Positions 15,958-43,419 of a stretch of 64,000 nucleotides of DNA are shown here, piece after piece; position 1 is the first letter of the stretch, and every line of letters begins with the position of its first letter. The notes beneath the pieces were generated by a model. It worked only from the letters and a program-made list of their open reading frames with translations, had not been told where the DNA came from and made no database searches. Source of the DNA: Flavobacteria bacterium MS024-2A (GTDB taxonomy: Bacteria; Bacteroidota; Bacteroidia; Flavobacteriales; Flavobacteriaceae); the NCBI GenBank assembly GCA_905182305.1, contig CAJJBB010000008.1, positions 62,001-126,000 of the forward strand. Direction: 5' to 3'. The translations under genes were made by a program, and so were the position numbers.

Positions 15958-16855
15958 AACCATCTCTAGGATGAAAACGTTCAATTACACTACGTAAATG
16001 TTGTGTGTCTAAATGAGTATATACTTCTGTAGTAGTAATATTCTCATGTCCCATTAAGATCTGAATGGTTCTTATATCAGCACCATTCTCTAAAAGGTGA
16101 GTTGCAAAAGAATGGCGAAAGGTGTGTGGGCCAATTTTTTTTTTAATATCTGCTTTTAAAGCTAATTGCTTTATAATTGTAAAAATCATTTGTCTGGTTA
16201 AGATTTTGCCATTTCTGTTCAAAAAAACAATATCCTGATAAACTGAATCAATATTTTGTTGTGTTCTGGAATTATTAATATAGAATAATATAAATTTTTT
16301 AGTGAATTTCCCCATAGGGACTAATCTTTGTTTGTTTCCCTTGCCAGTAACCCGAATTAAATTTTCTTGAAAGAATAAATTTGATAAACTCAAATTTACA
16401 AGTTCAGAAACACGAATTCCACTCCCATAGAGCATTTCTAGCATTGCTCTATTTCTAAAGCCTTGAGGGTGTCCTAAATCTATTTGTTCTAACAATAAAT
16501 CTACTTCATTGAGATCTAAAACATCAGGTAATTTTCTGCCTAATTTTGGTGCTTCAATTAGATCAGTTGGGTTAGAGACTCTATATGACTCAAATATCAT
16601 ATAGTCAAAAAAACTTCGTAAGCCAGAAAGTCTTCGAGCTTGGGTATTTGGACTTAATAATTTTGCTGTTTCATAAATGAAGGTTTGGACAGATGACAAA
16701 TCACAATCTATTGGATTTTTAGTGATATTTTCATCAATTAAAAACTTCTCAAAACCAAGAACATCTAATGTGTAGCTTTCTATAGAGCTTTCAGAAAGAC
16801 CTCTTTCAATTTTAAGATACATTCGATAATCTGCAATGGCTTTTTTCCAATTCAC
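15947..16855 (-). CDS. xerD: XerD-type tyrosine recombinase
   Basis: XerC/XerD recombinases resolve chromosome dimers at dif near the divisome. The 302-residue protein has the N-terminal SAM-like core-binding domain and the full catalytic set: Arg148, Lys172, His244, Arg247, His270 and Tyr279. Size and isolation beside housekeeping genes (divergent from aroQ) fit the chromosomal Xer recombinase, not a mobile-element integrase. The choice of XerD over XerC is by overall resemblance only. Confidence 0.9.
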   Translation of the reverse strand: MNWKKAIADYRMYLKIERGLSESSIESYTLDVLGFEKFLIDENITKNPIDCDLSSVQTFIYETAKLLSPNTQARRLSGLRSFFDYMIFESYRVSNPTDLIEAPKLGRKLPDVLDLNEVDLLLEQIDLGHPQGFRNRAMLEMLYGSGIRVSELVNLSLSNLFFQENLIRVTGKGNKQRLVPMGKFTKKFILFYINNSRTQQNIDSVYQDIVFLNRNGKILTRQMIFTIIKQLALKADIKKKIGPHTFRHSFATHLLENGADIRTIQILMGHENITTTEVYTHLDTQHLRSVIERFHPRDGSKR

Positions 16856-35632: not shown

Positions 35633-36391
35633 TTAAAAATCTAATTTAAATGTTTTTCTGAGGGTATCTAAAACTGGATTGATCTTCAGTAAATGCTGAT
35701 ATTTTTCTGGAGAAGAAAAAATAGTTTCTTCTTTTATGTTTTCTGAGATACCAATTGAAATACTTAAAATTTGATTGTTCAGGTGGTTTCTTAAATACGG
35801 CAATAGTTTTTCCATTTCCTTAATTAACTCACTTTTGTTCATTTCATTAGCAACCTCAAAGCTAACTTGAAAATTATCTGCAAGTACAGGACTATTCATG
35901 AATAATATTGAAGCCATATTACTTTTTCCATCATTTTTTATATTTTCAATATATTGTTTCCAAAGAAGATCAAGATCTTCTTGTTTAAAAGGATCTTGTG
36001 GGAGTTCAGAAACTTTTACAGTTGACTTATTTTTTTCTATAACTGCTTTTTTTAAAGCGATACTAGAAAGTGAAAACCCAGAAACAGGTATTTTTATAAA
36101 TTTCTTCTTAGCAACAGGAATTGTAGCATTGATTTTTTTTTCTTTTTTACTTGGAATTTCAGGTATTATTTTATTGACAATAGAAGTTGACTCATTCTCT
36201 TGTGACGGGTAGTTTTTAACTTCGCTTTTAACAGGCTCTATTTGATGTGTTTTTTGTTCTTCTTTTTTAAGAATTAATGAATTTTTTGGAATTACATTGG
36301 TAGAAGCTTTTTTTAAAGTCGGTAGGGAAGAATCTAGAGTATATTCTGAGTTAGAGTATTTTTTATATTCACTCGAGGGAATTATGAATTC
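35633..36391 (-). CDS. dnaX: dnaX -1-frame extension (tau C-terminal region)
   Basis: This frame has no start codon of its own near its beginning but is completely open for 252 codons after a -1 slip at the A run, from GAA at 36391-36389 to the TAA at 35633-35635. It begins EFIIPSSEYKKYS, directly continuing the conserved NGEKKK end of the zero frame. A low-complexity Lys/Pro/Ser linker follows, then a folded domain from about PQDPFKQEDLDLLWKQYIENI to LRKTFKLDF, the C-terminal region seen in flavobacterial DnaX. Fused length would be about 608 residues. An A11 instead of A10 would place both parts in one frame. Confidence 0.8.
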   Translation of the reverse strand, partial: EFIIPSSEYKKYSNSEYTLDSSLPTLKKASTNVIPKNSLILKKEEQKTHQIEPVKSEVKNYPSQENESTSIVNKIIPEIPSKKEKKINATIPVAKKKFIKIPVSGFSLSSIALKKAVIEKNKSTVKVSELPQDPFKQEDLDLLWKQYIENIKNDGKSNMASILFMNSPVLADNFQVSFEVANEMNKSELIKEMEKLLPYLRNHLNNQILSISIGISENIKEETIFSSPEKYQHLLKINPVLDTLRKTFKLDF

Positions 36392-37458
36392 TTTTTTTTT
36401 TCTCCATTAAAATGGAGTGAAGCAAGTTGCATTAAATAAAGTTCAACATGAACCCTTTTGTTTTGACAATTTCTATATTCAACTTCGCAACAATTAATTA
36501 ATTTAATAGCGTCTAAAATATAGTTGGATGATAGTGTTGCGGTAGCTGAAGTATACTCTTCTTTAACACTCGAACTTACTTCCATTAGTAAAAGGGTTTT
36601 AGGATCTTTTGCGAGCATTAAATTCCTGAAATGATCTCCTAATCCACTTATGAACTGCAAACTGTCTATTCCGCGCTGTAATAAGGTGTCATAGGTTGTT
36701 AAAACACCAGGGATGTCGTTTTGAAAAAATAACTTCCCAAAGCTAGTATAGGTTTGATGGTCTAAAACATTTAAATTATTTGCAACACCACTAACTGACA
36801 AATTACCTTGGGTAAAACTCACCATTCGGTCAAAGATTGAGAGTGCATCTCGCAAAGCACCTTCTGCTTTTTGAGCAATCAAATACAAAGCATCTTCTTC
36901 AAATACTAAGTTTCTTTTATTAGCAATCTTAATGAGATAGTTTTTTATGTCTTCAATAGAAATCCGCTTGAAATCATAGACTTGGCAACGAGATAATACG
37001 GTGGGTATAATTTTATTTTTTTCGGTGGTTGCTAGAATGAAGATAGCATGTTTTGGTGGCTCCTCAAGTGTTTTTAAAAAAGCATTGAAGGCAGAAGTAG
37101 AGAGCATATGTGCCTCATCAATGATGTATATTTTATGAGTACCAATTTGGGGAGGTATTCTAACTTGATCATTTATTTTTCTAATATCCTCTACTGAATT
37201 ATTAGAAGCGGCATCTAATTCAAAAATATTGAATGAAGAATCGTTATCTATCGAGGTGGTTGCACTATTAATTTGCTTTGCAAGTATTCTAGCACATGAA
37301 GTTTTACCTACTCCTCTTGGACCACAAAAAAGAAGTGCTTGTGCAAGTTGATTGGTTTCCAAGCTATTTTGGAGTGTTCTTGTAATACTTTCCTGTCCTA
37401 CCACTTCATCAAAAGTACTAGGTCTATATTTTAAAGCAGACACAACAAATGTTTCCAT
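36382..37458 (-). CDS. dnaX: DnaX, DNA polymerase III gamma/tau, zero-frame (gamma-like) product
   Basis: DnaX is the clamp-loader ATPase of the replicative polymerase. The 358-residue zero-frame product has Walker A GPRGVGKTS (46-54), Walker B/DEAH IYIIDEAHML, the sensor segment ATTEKNKIIPTVLSRC and the lid/collar domains. It stops right after NGEKKKNS. The zinc-binding Cys cluster of E. coli DnaX after the P-loop is absent, as in other Bacteroidota. The frame opens at a TTG (37467), but the ATG at 37458 (METFVVSA) gives the family's N-terminus. The stop lies two codons after an A_AAA_AAG heptamer. Confidence 0.93.
   Translation of the reverse strand: METFVVSALKYRPSTFDEVVGQESITRTLQNSLETNQLAQALLFCGPRGVGKTSCARILAKQINSATTSIDNDSSFNIFELDAASNNSVEDIRKINDQVRIPPQIGTHKIYIIDEAHMLSTSAFNAFLKTLEEPPKHAIFILATTEKNKIIPTVLSRCQVYDFKRISIEDIKNYLIKIANKRNLVFEEDALYLIAQKAEGALRDALSIFDRMVSFTQGNLSVSGVANNLNVLDHQTYTSFGKLFFQNDIPGVLTTYDTLLQRGIDSLQFISGLGDHFRNLMLAKDPKTLLLMEVSSSVKEEYTSATATLSSNYILDAIKLINCCEVEYRNCQNKRVHVELYLMQLASLHFNGEKKKNS
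36391..36417 (-). promoter_or_regulatory. Candidate -1 frameshift site of dnaX
   Basis: Reading the minus strand, an A10 run (36401-36392) and G form the heptamer A_AAA_AAG at 36397-36391 in the zero frame, the same slippery site as E. coli dnaX. Immediately upstream is a perfect hairpin CTCCAT-TTTA-ATGGAG (36417-36402) whose 3' arm gives an SD-like GGAG 4 bases before the heptamer. Downstream only a weak ATTCA/TGAAT stem is visible. The zero-frame stop follows two codons later. Confidence 0.6.
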
Positions 37459-37472: not shown

Positions 37473-37548
37473 TAAATCAGATTAAAGTTTATGACTTTTA
37501 GGGTATGCTTATTCCATTATAATTATTAACAAATAACTAACTTTACCG

Positions 37549-37838
37549 AGCAGGCCATCTTATCGCTCTTTTCTTTGGAAGAGAGAGGAAAGTCCGGACA
37601 CCACAGAACGGCATAGCGGGTAACACCCGCCCTTTGAAAGAAGCGGACTAGTGCAACAGAAAGCAAGTACAGTTAGGCTGTAGTGAAACCAGGTAAACTC
37701 TATGCGGTGCAACGCCAAGTAAATCTACAATTAAGAGTTGTTTCGCTCAATGTAGAAGGGTAGGCGGCTTGAATGTAGGAGTAATTTTACATCTAGATAA
37801 ATGATAAGACTCGACAGAATCCGGCTTATCGGCCTGCT
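37549..37838 (+). ncRNA. rnpB: RNase P RNA, bacterial type A
   Basis: The catalytic RNA of RNase P, which matures tRNA 5' ends. The conserved core GAGGAAAGTCCGGACACC is at about 37584-37602 and its P4 partner ACAGAATCCGGCTTAT near 37815-37830. The termini pair perfectly (AGCAGGCC at 37549-37556 with GGCCTGCT at 37831-37838), which sets the ends at about 290 nt. GGGTAACACCCGCC forms an inner helix. A near-consensus TAACTTTA (37538-37545) may be the -7 box. A T tract (37838-37844) follows directly as terminator and overlaps the rsmD stop on the other strand. Confidence 0.93.
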
Positions 37839-37842
37839 TTTT

Positions 37843-38370
37843 TTATTTAAAGAAGGAAAAGACACTTCCTCCATAAGTTCTTGAAAAATCAAAACCTTGA
37901 CCTGCTGAAAGGTCAATAAAGACACTGTGCTCTAGAATAATAAGGCCAGATTCATTTAATGATTTTTTAGCTTCAAGAATTAAAACAAAATATGCTTCTG
38001 CATCCCATTCATAGGGGGGATCACCAAAAATAATATCATAGTGACTTGTTTTTTTTTCAAGGAATGAAATAGAATCACATTGTGATGAATCTATAGATAA
38101 CCCTAGGTCGATTGCAGTTTTTTTTATGAAATTTACGCAGTGACGATTCTGATCTATTGCGGTTATATTTGCTACTCCCCTGGAAGCAAACTCATAACTT
38201 ATATTACCTGTTCCAGAAAAAAGATCTAAAACATGAAGGGAATTAAAATTTAAACGGTGTTGTAAAATATTAAACAATCCCTCTTTTGAACGATCAGTTG
38301 TCGGGCGAACAGGTAGTTTTTTAGGAGCTAAAATGCGCCTTCCTTTATGAGAGCCTGAGATAATCCTCAT
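37843..38370 (-). CDS. rsmD: RsmD, 16S rRNA m2G966 methyltransferase
   Basis: RsmD methylates G966 of 16S rRNA with SAM. The 175-residue protein starts MRIISGSHKGRRI, the family's N-terminal signature. It has the SAM loop LDLFSGTGNIS and the catalytic DPPY (FGDPPYEWD). Its stop codon lies in the rnpB terminator T tract. The start touches the stop of the upstream DUF3822 gene by one base, so rsmD is co-translated with the genes at 38.4-39.8 kb, the usual flavobacterial order. Confidence 0.93.
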   Translation of the reverse strand: MRIISGSHKGRRILAPKKLPVRPTTDRSKEGLFNILQHRLNFNSLHVLDLFSGTGNISYEFASRGVANITAIDQNRHCVNFIKKTAIDLGLSIDSSQCDSISFLEKKTSHYDIIFGDPPYEWDAEAYFVLILEAKKSLNESGLIILEHSVFIDLSAGQGFDFSRTYGGSVFSFFK

Positions 38371-42588: not shown

Positions 42589-43419
42589 TTAATGTTGTTT
42601 TCGAATCTCAGGAAGACAAAGATCATTTATTACATCTATATAGGAGGGAGTTAAATGATTTGGAAGCCTATTTTTTTTAGGTAAAGTAGCAAGGTATCTA
42701 ATAGTGTTTGAAGTATAGACTTGTTTGTATATTCCTGGATTAAAATGTCTTTTTTCAACAATCATTTTTATGAAATCATGATGAGAAATTAAATCTGAAC
42801 TTCCCAAATGATATAATCCTGTTTTTTTTTTATTAATTAAATAGTGAATTTGTTGACTCAACCTGATGTCACTATTAACATTAATTATGGTATTAGGGAA
42901 TACTTCGATGAATTTATTTTTTTTTACTGCTTCATCAATTTCAAGTGTTCTTGGGGCATTTAGTCCAAAAATCATCGGTAAACGTGCAATAATATATTTA
43001 CCAACTAATAAGCGAAATAACTTATTTTCAATTTTTATTTTAAAATGACCATATTTACTCTCGGAAAGTGTTTTATCGTATTCGTAAGAAGGAAAATGCC
43101 GGAAGGAATCAAAGACATTGGCTGAGGATAAAAAAAGTATTCTACAGTTTTTATCTTTAATGTAATCAACTATTTGCTCATGGGCTTCTACTTGCGCATT
43201 AAAATTTCCACGTAAAGCAGAAATAATTAATTTGGGTTTCACCTCTTTTAAAATTGGTTCTACAGAATCCCTCTCAACATCAAAAGAAAAAAAATGTTGA
43301 TTTTTAGCATATATAGTCTTTGTATGGAAGGTTGCAAAGGTTTTGTAAAATGGTGCAAGTTCTTTGTATAAACAATTTCCAATAAATCCACTTCCTCCTA
43401 AAATTAAAATTGATTTCAA
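42589..43419 (-). CDS. RmlD-like NAD(P)-dependent reductase/epimerase
   Basis: A 276-residue extended SDR protein. The Rossmann loop is ILGGSGFIGNCL (5-16), an FLSSANVFDS strand precedes the active site, and KYGHFK supplies a YxxxK pair, followed by ARLPMIFGLNAP. It resembles dTDP-4-dehydrorhamnose reductase, but no other rhamnose genes are nearby, so the substrate is open. It lies 4 bases after gcvT and 22 bases before yebC, suggesting a gcvT-RmlD-yebC operon, an order also seen in related flavobacteria to my recollection. Confidence 0.78.
   Translation of the reverse strand: MKSILILGGSGFIGNCLYKELAPFYKTFATFHTKTIYAKNQHFFSFDVERDSVEPILKEVKPKLIISALRGNFNAQVEAHEQIVDYIKDKNCRILFLSSANVFDSFRHFPSYEYDKTLSESKYGHFKIKIENKLFRLLVGKYIIARLPMIFGLNAPRTLEIDEAVKKNKFIEVFPNTIINVNSDIRLSQQIHYLINKKKTGLYHLGSSDLISHHDFIKMIVEKRHFNPGIYKQVYTSNTIRYLATLPKKNRLPNHLTPSYIDVINDLCLPEIRKQH

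Follow-up and report, generated by a model that had tools for sequence, protein, structure and literature searches.

The dnaX gene of Flavobacteria bacterium MS024-2A, on the minus strand of the 64-kb stretch of DNA analysed here (the window), is divided between two overlapping reading frames, the break falling at a run of ten A's (A10). The split is real and conserved, and very probably functional. We consider it probable that this dnaX is a working gene from which a single locus supplies two clamp-loader proteins, and that the slip joining the two frames is mainly transcriptional and occurs on the A10 run.

Two overlapping frames at the dnaX locus

The zero frame of dnaX begins with the ATG at 37458 and ends two codons past a G-A10-G sequence, whose last G lies at 36391. 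The −1 frame runs uninterrupted from 36391 to 35636, with its stop at 35635-35633, and is closed upstream by a TAA at 36409-36407. The frame shift is therefore confined to the 22 nt from 36406 to 36385, and the entire A10 run lies inside them. The features of the locus, with the basis of each in parentheses, are as follows.

36382..37458, minus strand: zero frame of dnaX, the clamp-loader part, a short gamma-like product of 358 residues (ORF and profile matches)
35633..36391, minus strand: −1 frame of dnaX, the tau C-terminal part, 252 codons (ORF, NF011531 match, and selection in the −1 frame that is strong from codon 159 and weaker before)
36392..36401, minus strand: A10 run, proposed slip site (sequence and conservation in the genus)
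36391..36397, minus strand: zero-frame A_AAA_AAG heptamer, where ribosomes might shift by −1 (sequence)
36385..36406, minus strand: 22-nt zone of obligatory frame change (between the last −1-frame stop and the zero-frame stop)
36382..36384, minus strand: TAA terminating the zero-frame product (sequence)

A sequence-only reading of this DNA had described a zero frame that ends two codons after A_AAA_AAG (36397-36391) and a −1 frame of 252 codons carrying the tau C-terminal region. The coordinates agree with this, as do the matches to the NCBIfam gamma/tau model NF011531. The zero-frame N part covers positions 1-370 of the model (E 1.9e-161, 539 bits) and the −1-frame C part positions 404-612 (E 2.2e-21, 76 bits), each singly below a cut-off of 685 that is set for the whole protein, and the two are consecutive segments of one model. 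The N part was also recognized by TIGR02397 (366.8 bits, cut-off 250), by the Pfam domain III model PF12169 at residues 228-347 (21.8 bits, slightly below its cut-off of 24.4) and, over residues 4-289, by clamp-loader gamma/tau chains in the PDB. The C part had no Pfam match at E≤1. Its only PDB relatives by sequence were two Rab chains at E 0.9, which we judged to be noise. An RNase P RNA of class A (RF00010, 210.9 bits; 37547-37844, plus strand) lies immediately upstream of dnaX and is encoded on the opposite strand.

Conservation of the split in the genus

A search of 38 genomes of the genus gave 32 complete dnaX loci and one that was cut (G023); the remaining five genomes had weak matches only, taken as paralogues. 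A split with tau in the −1 frame is found in 23 of the 32 loci, the window's among them, and each of these belongs to a separate genome; the other nine loci are fused. The run is A10 in 31 loci and A11 in one (L028). All 23 split loci carry A10 followed by G, with A_AAA_AAG intact, and the closest relative (96% identity) is split identically to the window. Among the nine fused loci, eight have A10 and L028 has A11; when one A is removed from L028, a stop follows two codons later (by eye). The proposal that the usual roles are reversed, with the short form as the default product and tau requiring a shift, is supported, and the comparison with close relatives that the same reading had called for shows the split and the heptamer conserved in those loci.

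That reading had also named a mutation or a miscounted homopolymer as alternatives, and held that reads or relatives with A11 and a single frame would refute it. Such a relative exists in L028, but this is a minority state (1/32), the eight other fused loci being fused at A10. An assembly error, by which the true run would be A11 and dnaX one open frame, gains some plausibility from the facts that a single A changes the frame and that L028 is both A11 and fused. However, the identical A10 and split recur in 23/32 loci, each in another genome, the split is also present in single-contig relatives such as G379 (L150) and G292 (L217), and zero-frame stops lie nearer to the run than to control positions. 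We regard an assembly error as extremely improbable, and mutation or miscounting as very unlikely given 23 split loci with the same A10-G. Homopolymer error and pseudogene were both set aside on the basis of relatives with the same split and of protein-type selection on the C part.

As controls we followed other A10 runs on the coding strand in the window through their homologues. With the window counted, A10 was found in 3/30 homologues of an rmlD-like gene and 2/30 of an XerC/D-type recombinase, against 31/32 for dnaX, so that the conservation of the dnaX run is above chance. These control runs lie at 16135-16144 and 42822-42831, in the XerC/D-type recombinase and the rmlD-like gene; they are not conserved in the genus and their ORFs are unbroken, which suggests that slippage is tolerated or modest in this genome and that such runs are not strictly avoided. 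Four homologues of the rmlD-like gene in the genus (L442, L448, L450, L455) have one stop inside the match. A further run, T10 at 1195-1204, lies where a minus-strand ORF begins, but the start of this ORF is doubtful.

Selection on the C part

Seven pairs of split genus loci, chosen among 253 possible pairs, gave dN/dS values of 0.12-0.40 for the C part in the −1 frame. The last 94 codons, from codon 159 onward, showed values of 0.08-0.12 in 7/7 pairs; for the linker formed by the first 158 codons the ratio, computable in five of the seven pairs, was 0.14-0.70. The window's own closest pair had a linker value of 0.70, and over its whole C part the differences at codon positions 1-3 numbered 32, 21 and 32. 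By its dN/dS values the −1 part evolves as protein, weakly in the linker and clearly in the last 94 codons.

The boundary in selection coincides with an in-frame ATG at 35917 (codon 159), which opens an ORF of 94 residues. Both the ATG and the much stronger selection from this codon on than before it would be expected if the second frame were a separate, independently started gene, the other possibility of this kind being a decaying remnant. Against this, the codon is Met in only 3/23 split genus loci, so that a separate start at codon 159 is not conserved; the C part matches the tau end of NF011531; and fused relatives carry it within one protein. Stronger selection late in the C part would likewise be expected if a folded tau end followed a linker. 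We therefore think a separate gene or a remnant very improbable.

The A run across the phylum

Loci of dnaX were gathered from the genus, family, order, class and phylum, together with 80 named contigs and 140 hand-picked regions. Out of 347 loci with a dnaX profile match, 282 were kept after removal of 44 by locus number, 12 duplicates, four at contig edges, three short and two truncated. The 44 (L001 and L104-L146) are by their labels mostly from other phyla, although L105 is labelled Rikenellaceae and the phylum may also include L106 (Melioribacter) and L107 (Ignavibacteriaceae). Fused genes number 156 among the 282 loci, and of the split ones 111 require a −1 shift and 15 a +1 shift; these ratios are not frequencies, since the 140 regions were picked by hand with split family members favoured.

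In a stretch from −30 to +120 nt around the end of the domain III match, an A run of at least nine was present in 254/282 distinct loci and was exactly A10 in 202. Control stretches, all within the same genes, had such a run in 2/1410 cases in the N part and 5/282 in the C part. The run was still present in 17 of the 30 loci with a GC content of at least 0.50. In 73 loci added by the searches for further +1-type genes described below, which lie outside the 282 and partly repeat them, it was found in 45 fused, 24 split −1 and one short locus, and three fused loci had no such run. Among the Bacteroidota, fused dnaX genes that lack a run of nine A's at the boundary include L205, L296, L297, L301, L306, L318, L077 and L085, among others.

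The placement of stops was examined after widening the stretch to +150 nt, which gave 256 run-carrying loci. In the fused carriers (n=139), a stop within five codons was present in the frame reached by adding one A in 131 loci (control 41%) and in the frame reached by losing one A in 109 (control 37%). The split −1 carriers (n=107) had a zero-frame stop within five codons in 97 (control 35%), and an early stop in the third frame, reached by losing one A, in only 61 (control 43%). As stops follow soon after the run in the slipped frames, a slip of one A could swap the short and the long product in either layout. The run itself occurs in phases 0, 1 and 2, and the next base is G, T or C.

The sequence-only reading had placed its emphasis on A_AAA_AAG. 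This holds for the split loci of the genus (23/23), but across the sample what is conserved is the run itself, about ten A's long, whatever its codon phase and with a varying next base, which points instead to the alternative offered there, transcriptional slippage. With the sample thinned by genus and the window's genus left out, G follows a phase 1 run in 15/24 split −1 loci versus 34/95 fused (Fisher p 0.02). The corresponding counts for phases 0 and 2 were 8/14 and 16/26 versus 2/8 and 4/13 (p 0.20 and 0.10); a G in these phases after A10 would not complete A_AAA_AAG, yet it is common there too.

Signals for ribosomal frameshifting

If tau were produced by programmed −1 ribosomal frameshifting at the A_AAA_AAG within the run, the A10 transcript would remain unaltered. 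In favour of such a mechanism, the heptamer is intact in all 23 split genus loci, and −1 is the dominant direction among the run carriers of the phylum sample (split −1 in 107 and split +1 in 10), which is as expected from ribosomal shifting too and weighs against a transcriptional slip. However, the accompanying signals were not found in the window. The 70 nt after the run fold at −4.3 kcal/mol with z near 0 and hold no 3′ hairpin, and after the zero-frame stop z was 0.12, 0.51 and −0.28 at 50, 70 and 100 nt, with no stem-loop stimulator. In signals of the E. coli type, a Shine-Dalgarno-like (SD-like) stimulator is spaced about 10 nt upstream of the −1 site, and SD pairing is regarded as playing little part in Bacteroidia. 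In the window no such element was found at about 10 nt, the nearest GGAG ending only 4 nt before the heptamer (by eye). The closest relative, L010, gave −3.2 kcal/mol and z −1.84 at 50 nt after the stop.

Downstream structure was no clearer when the run carriers were taken as groups. Over the 70 nt after the run, the split genus loci (n=23) had a mean z of −0.50 with two below −2, compared with −0.10 and two in an upstream control. All split −1 loci (n=107) had a mean of −0.45 with 11 below −2 (upstream −0.30 with 13; 200 nt further on −0.08 with five), and fused loci (n=139) −0.41 with 18 (upstream −0.19 with eight; 200 nt further on −0.13 with seven). For this 70-nt stretch there was thus no clear signal, only a slight excess in the fused genes.

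Several relatives that lack the run do look ribosomal, which again favours such shifting. L282 and L284, from a family (f7) of the window's order, have no run of nine and carry CCA AAA AAG TAG, that is, A_AAA_AAG followed by TAG, with the −1 frame open for 210-214 codons. Their stem-loops within 50 nt reach −26.5 and −20.3 kcal/mol with z −7.4 and −2.6 (−4.3 and −0.6 over 70 nt), and the signal looks like an E. coli-type ribosomal layout with reversed roles. In L039 and L040, from the best-matching other genus of the window's family (g21), dnaX is split at GAA AAG TAA, an A_AAG followed by TAA, without an A run and with the −1 frame open for about 220 codons. This suggests ribosomal shifting there; a hint of structure was seen in L039 only (z −2.7 at 100 nt) and none in L040.

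Five loci on Bacteroidales or Bacteroidetes MAG contigs (L089, L092, L094, L097, L098) show yet another layout, with tau in the +1 frame and no A run at the boundary. Their zero frame ends in GYN AGG CAA TCR CRG GWG ... stop; the AGGCAATC core within it is invariant, even though their C parts are 25-43% identical in 9/10 pairs and 60% identical in one. The +1-frame overlap contains no ATG, GTG or TTG in L092 and L094, and a GTG or ATG in L089, L097 and L098. The AGGCAATC site of this group is a candidate +1 frameshift site. Searches for further members, in partly overlapping sets of 295, 64 and 400 genomes, gave none above 66% identity among the matches listed.

Proposed mechanism

Since the run occurs in all three codon phases, both slip directions are represented and the window has no 3′ hairpin, we favour transcriptional slippage; we infer that the locus yields both DnaX proteins and that slipping is chiefly of this kind. 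Transcripts with A10, made without a slip, would yield the gamma-like protein of 358 residues. RNA polymerase would sometimes insert one extra A on the run, and the resulting A11 transcripts would be read straight through into tau, of about 610 residues. Ribosomal −1 shifting at A_AAA_AAG may contribute some tau. As the chief source of tau, however, it seems unlikely to us, taking into account the missing hairpin, the GGAG too close to the heptamer, and the retention of the run also where codon phase and next base give no A_AAA_AAG. Against our picture stand, besides the dominant −1 direction and the intact heptamer, the split without a run in L039 and L040, the modest share of split −1 genes with an early third-frame stop, the weak linker selection and the codon-position differences in the window's closest pair, and the two A10 runs in unbroken ORFs.

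Frame changes across the tree

On a FastTree phylogeny of the N parts, with the run excluded, fused and split states were exchanged at least 44 times on all branches, and at least 34, 23 and 10 times with branches below support 90, 95 and 99 collapsed; these counts come from one single-gene tree, which can overcount, and from a sample that favoured split family members. Shuffled labels gave a mean of 93 exchanges on all branches and 73 at support 90. Among the 31 genera with at least two loci, four, the window's included, are mixed for fused and split loci.

A wider reading, which we put forward tentatively and with some doubt, is that polymerase slippage on a conserved A10 determines the ratio of short to long DnaX in most Bacteroidota. 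Because slipping would be efficient, the default product could drift nearly freely, and the tree would record at least 23-34 changes in whether tau is in frame. Lineages that lack the run would maintain the two products differently, one family by an E. coli-like heptamer with stop and hairpin, and a Bacteroidales group by a +1 site around AGGCAATC.

Relation to known dnaX systems

Two-ORF dnaX genes are already published. The parts of Antonov et al. (2013, PMC3711429) drawn on here describe 17 such genes from 12 genera, for which transcriptional realignment was inferred, with slipping in both directions as a criterion. A poly-A run lies at the frame transition in 12 of the 17, nine with ten A's (species in their Supplementary Figure S3). 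As in the window, tau requires a −1 frame change at the DNA level, and the window has the elements of this type: a clamp-loader part and a tau C part in overlapping frames, −1 at the DNA level, poly-A at the transition, conservation across species and protein-type selection on the C part. The two-ORF genes named in those parts are from Chloroherpeton and two Chlorobium species, whereas the window is from a flavobacterium. As a two-ORF dnaX it adds a member to a known kind, and to this the present analysis adds the conservation of the run across the phylum and the repeated flipping of the frame.

According to the corresponding parts of PMC1088944 and of Atkins et al. (2016, PMC5009743), Thermus thermophilus dnaX uses transcriptional slippage on A9. 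It shares with the present case an A run and close stops in the slipped frames, the latter seen here in fused Bacteroidota relatives; the two differ in that tau occupies the zero frame in Thermus and the −1 frame in the window. E. coli dnaX, with its −1 ribosomal frameshift (PMC5009743, PMC3711429, in the parts used), has in common with the window A_AAA_AAG and a single gene giving a short and a long clamp-loader subunit. It differs in that the roles are reversed in the window, in which no 3′ hairpin and no well-spaced SD-like element was found. The same parts of Atkins et al. state that roles seem reversed in 'many fewer bacteria', that with an efficiency near 50% one nucleotide can reverse them, and that there was considerable controversy over E. 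coli gamma before its role was settled. In the open-licence literature, as judged by title and the start of the abstract among the matches listed, no study that surveyed the Bacteroidota for the A10 run, for frame flipping or for the +1 site was found, so the evidence that none exists is weak.

Where dnaX is found split in a flavobacterial genome, it should not be annotated as a pseudogene or cut back to gamma. The relatives, some with one layout and some with the other, together with the few that look ribosomal, form a natural experiment on the different recoding means by which two products may be kept, and one that bears on whether the short form of the clamp-loader subunit is selected for.
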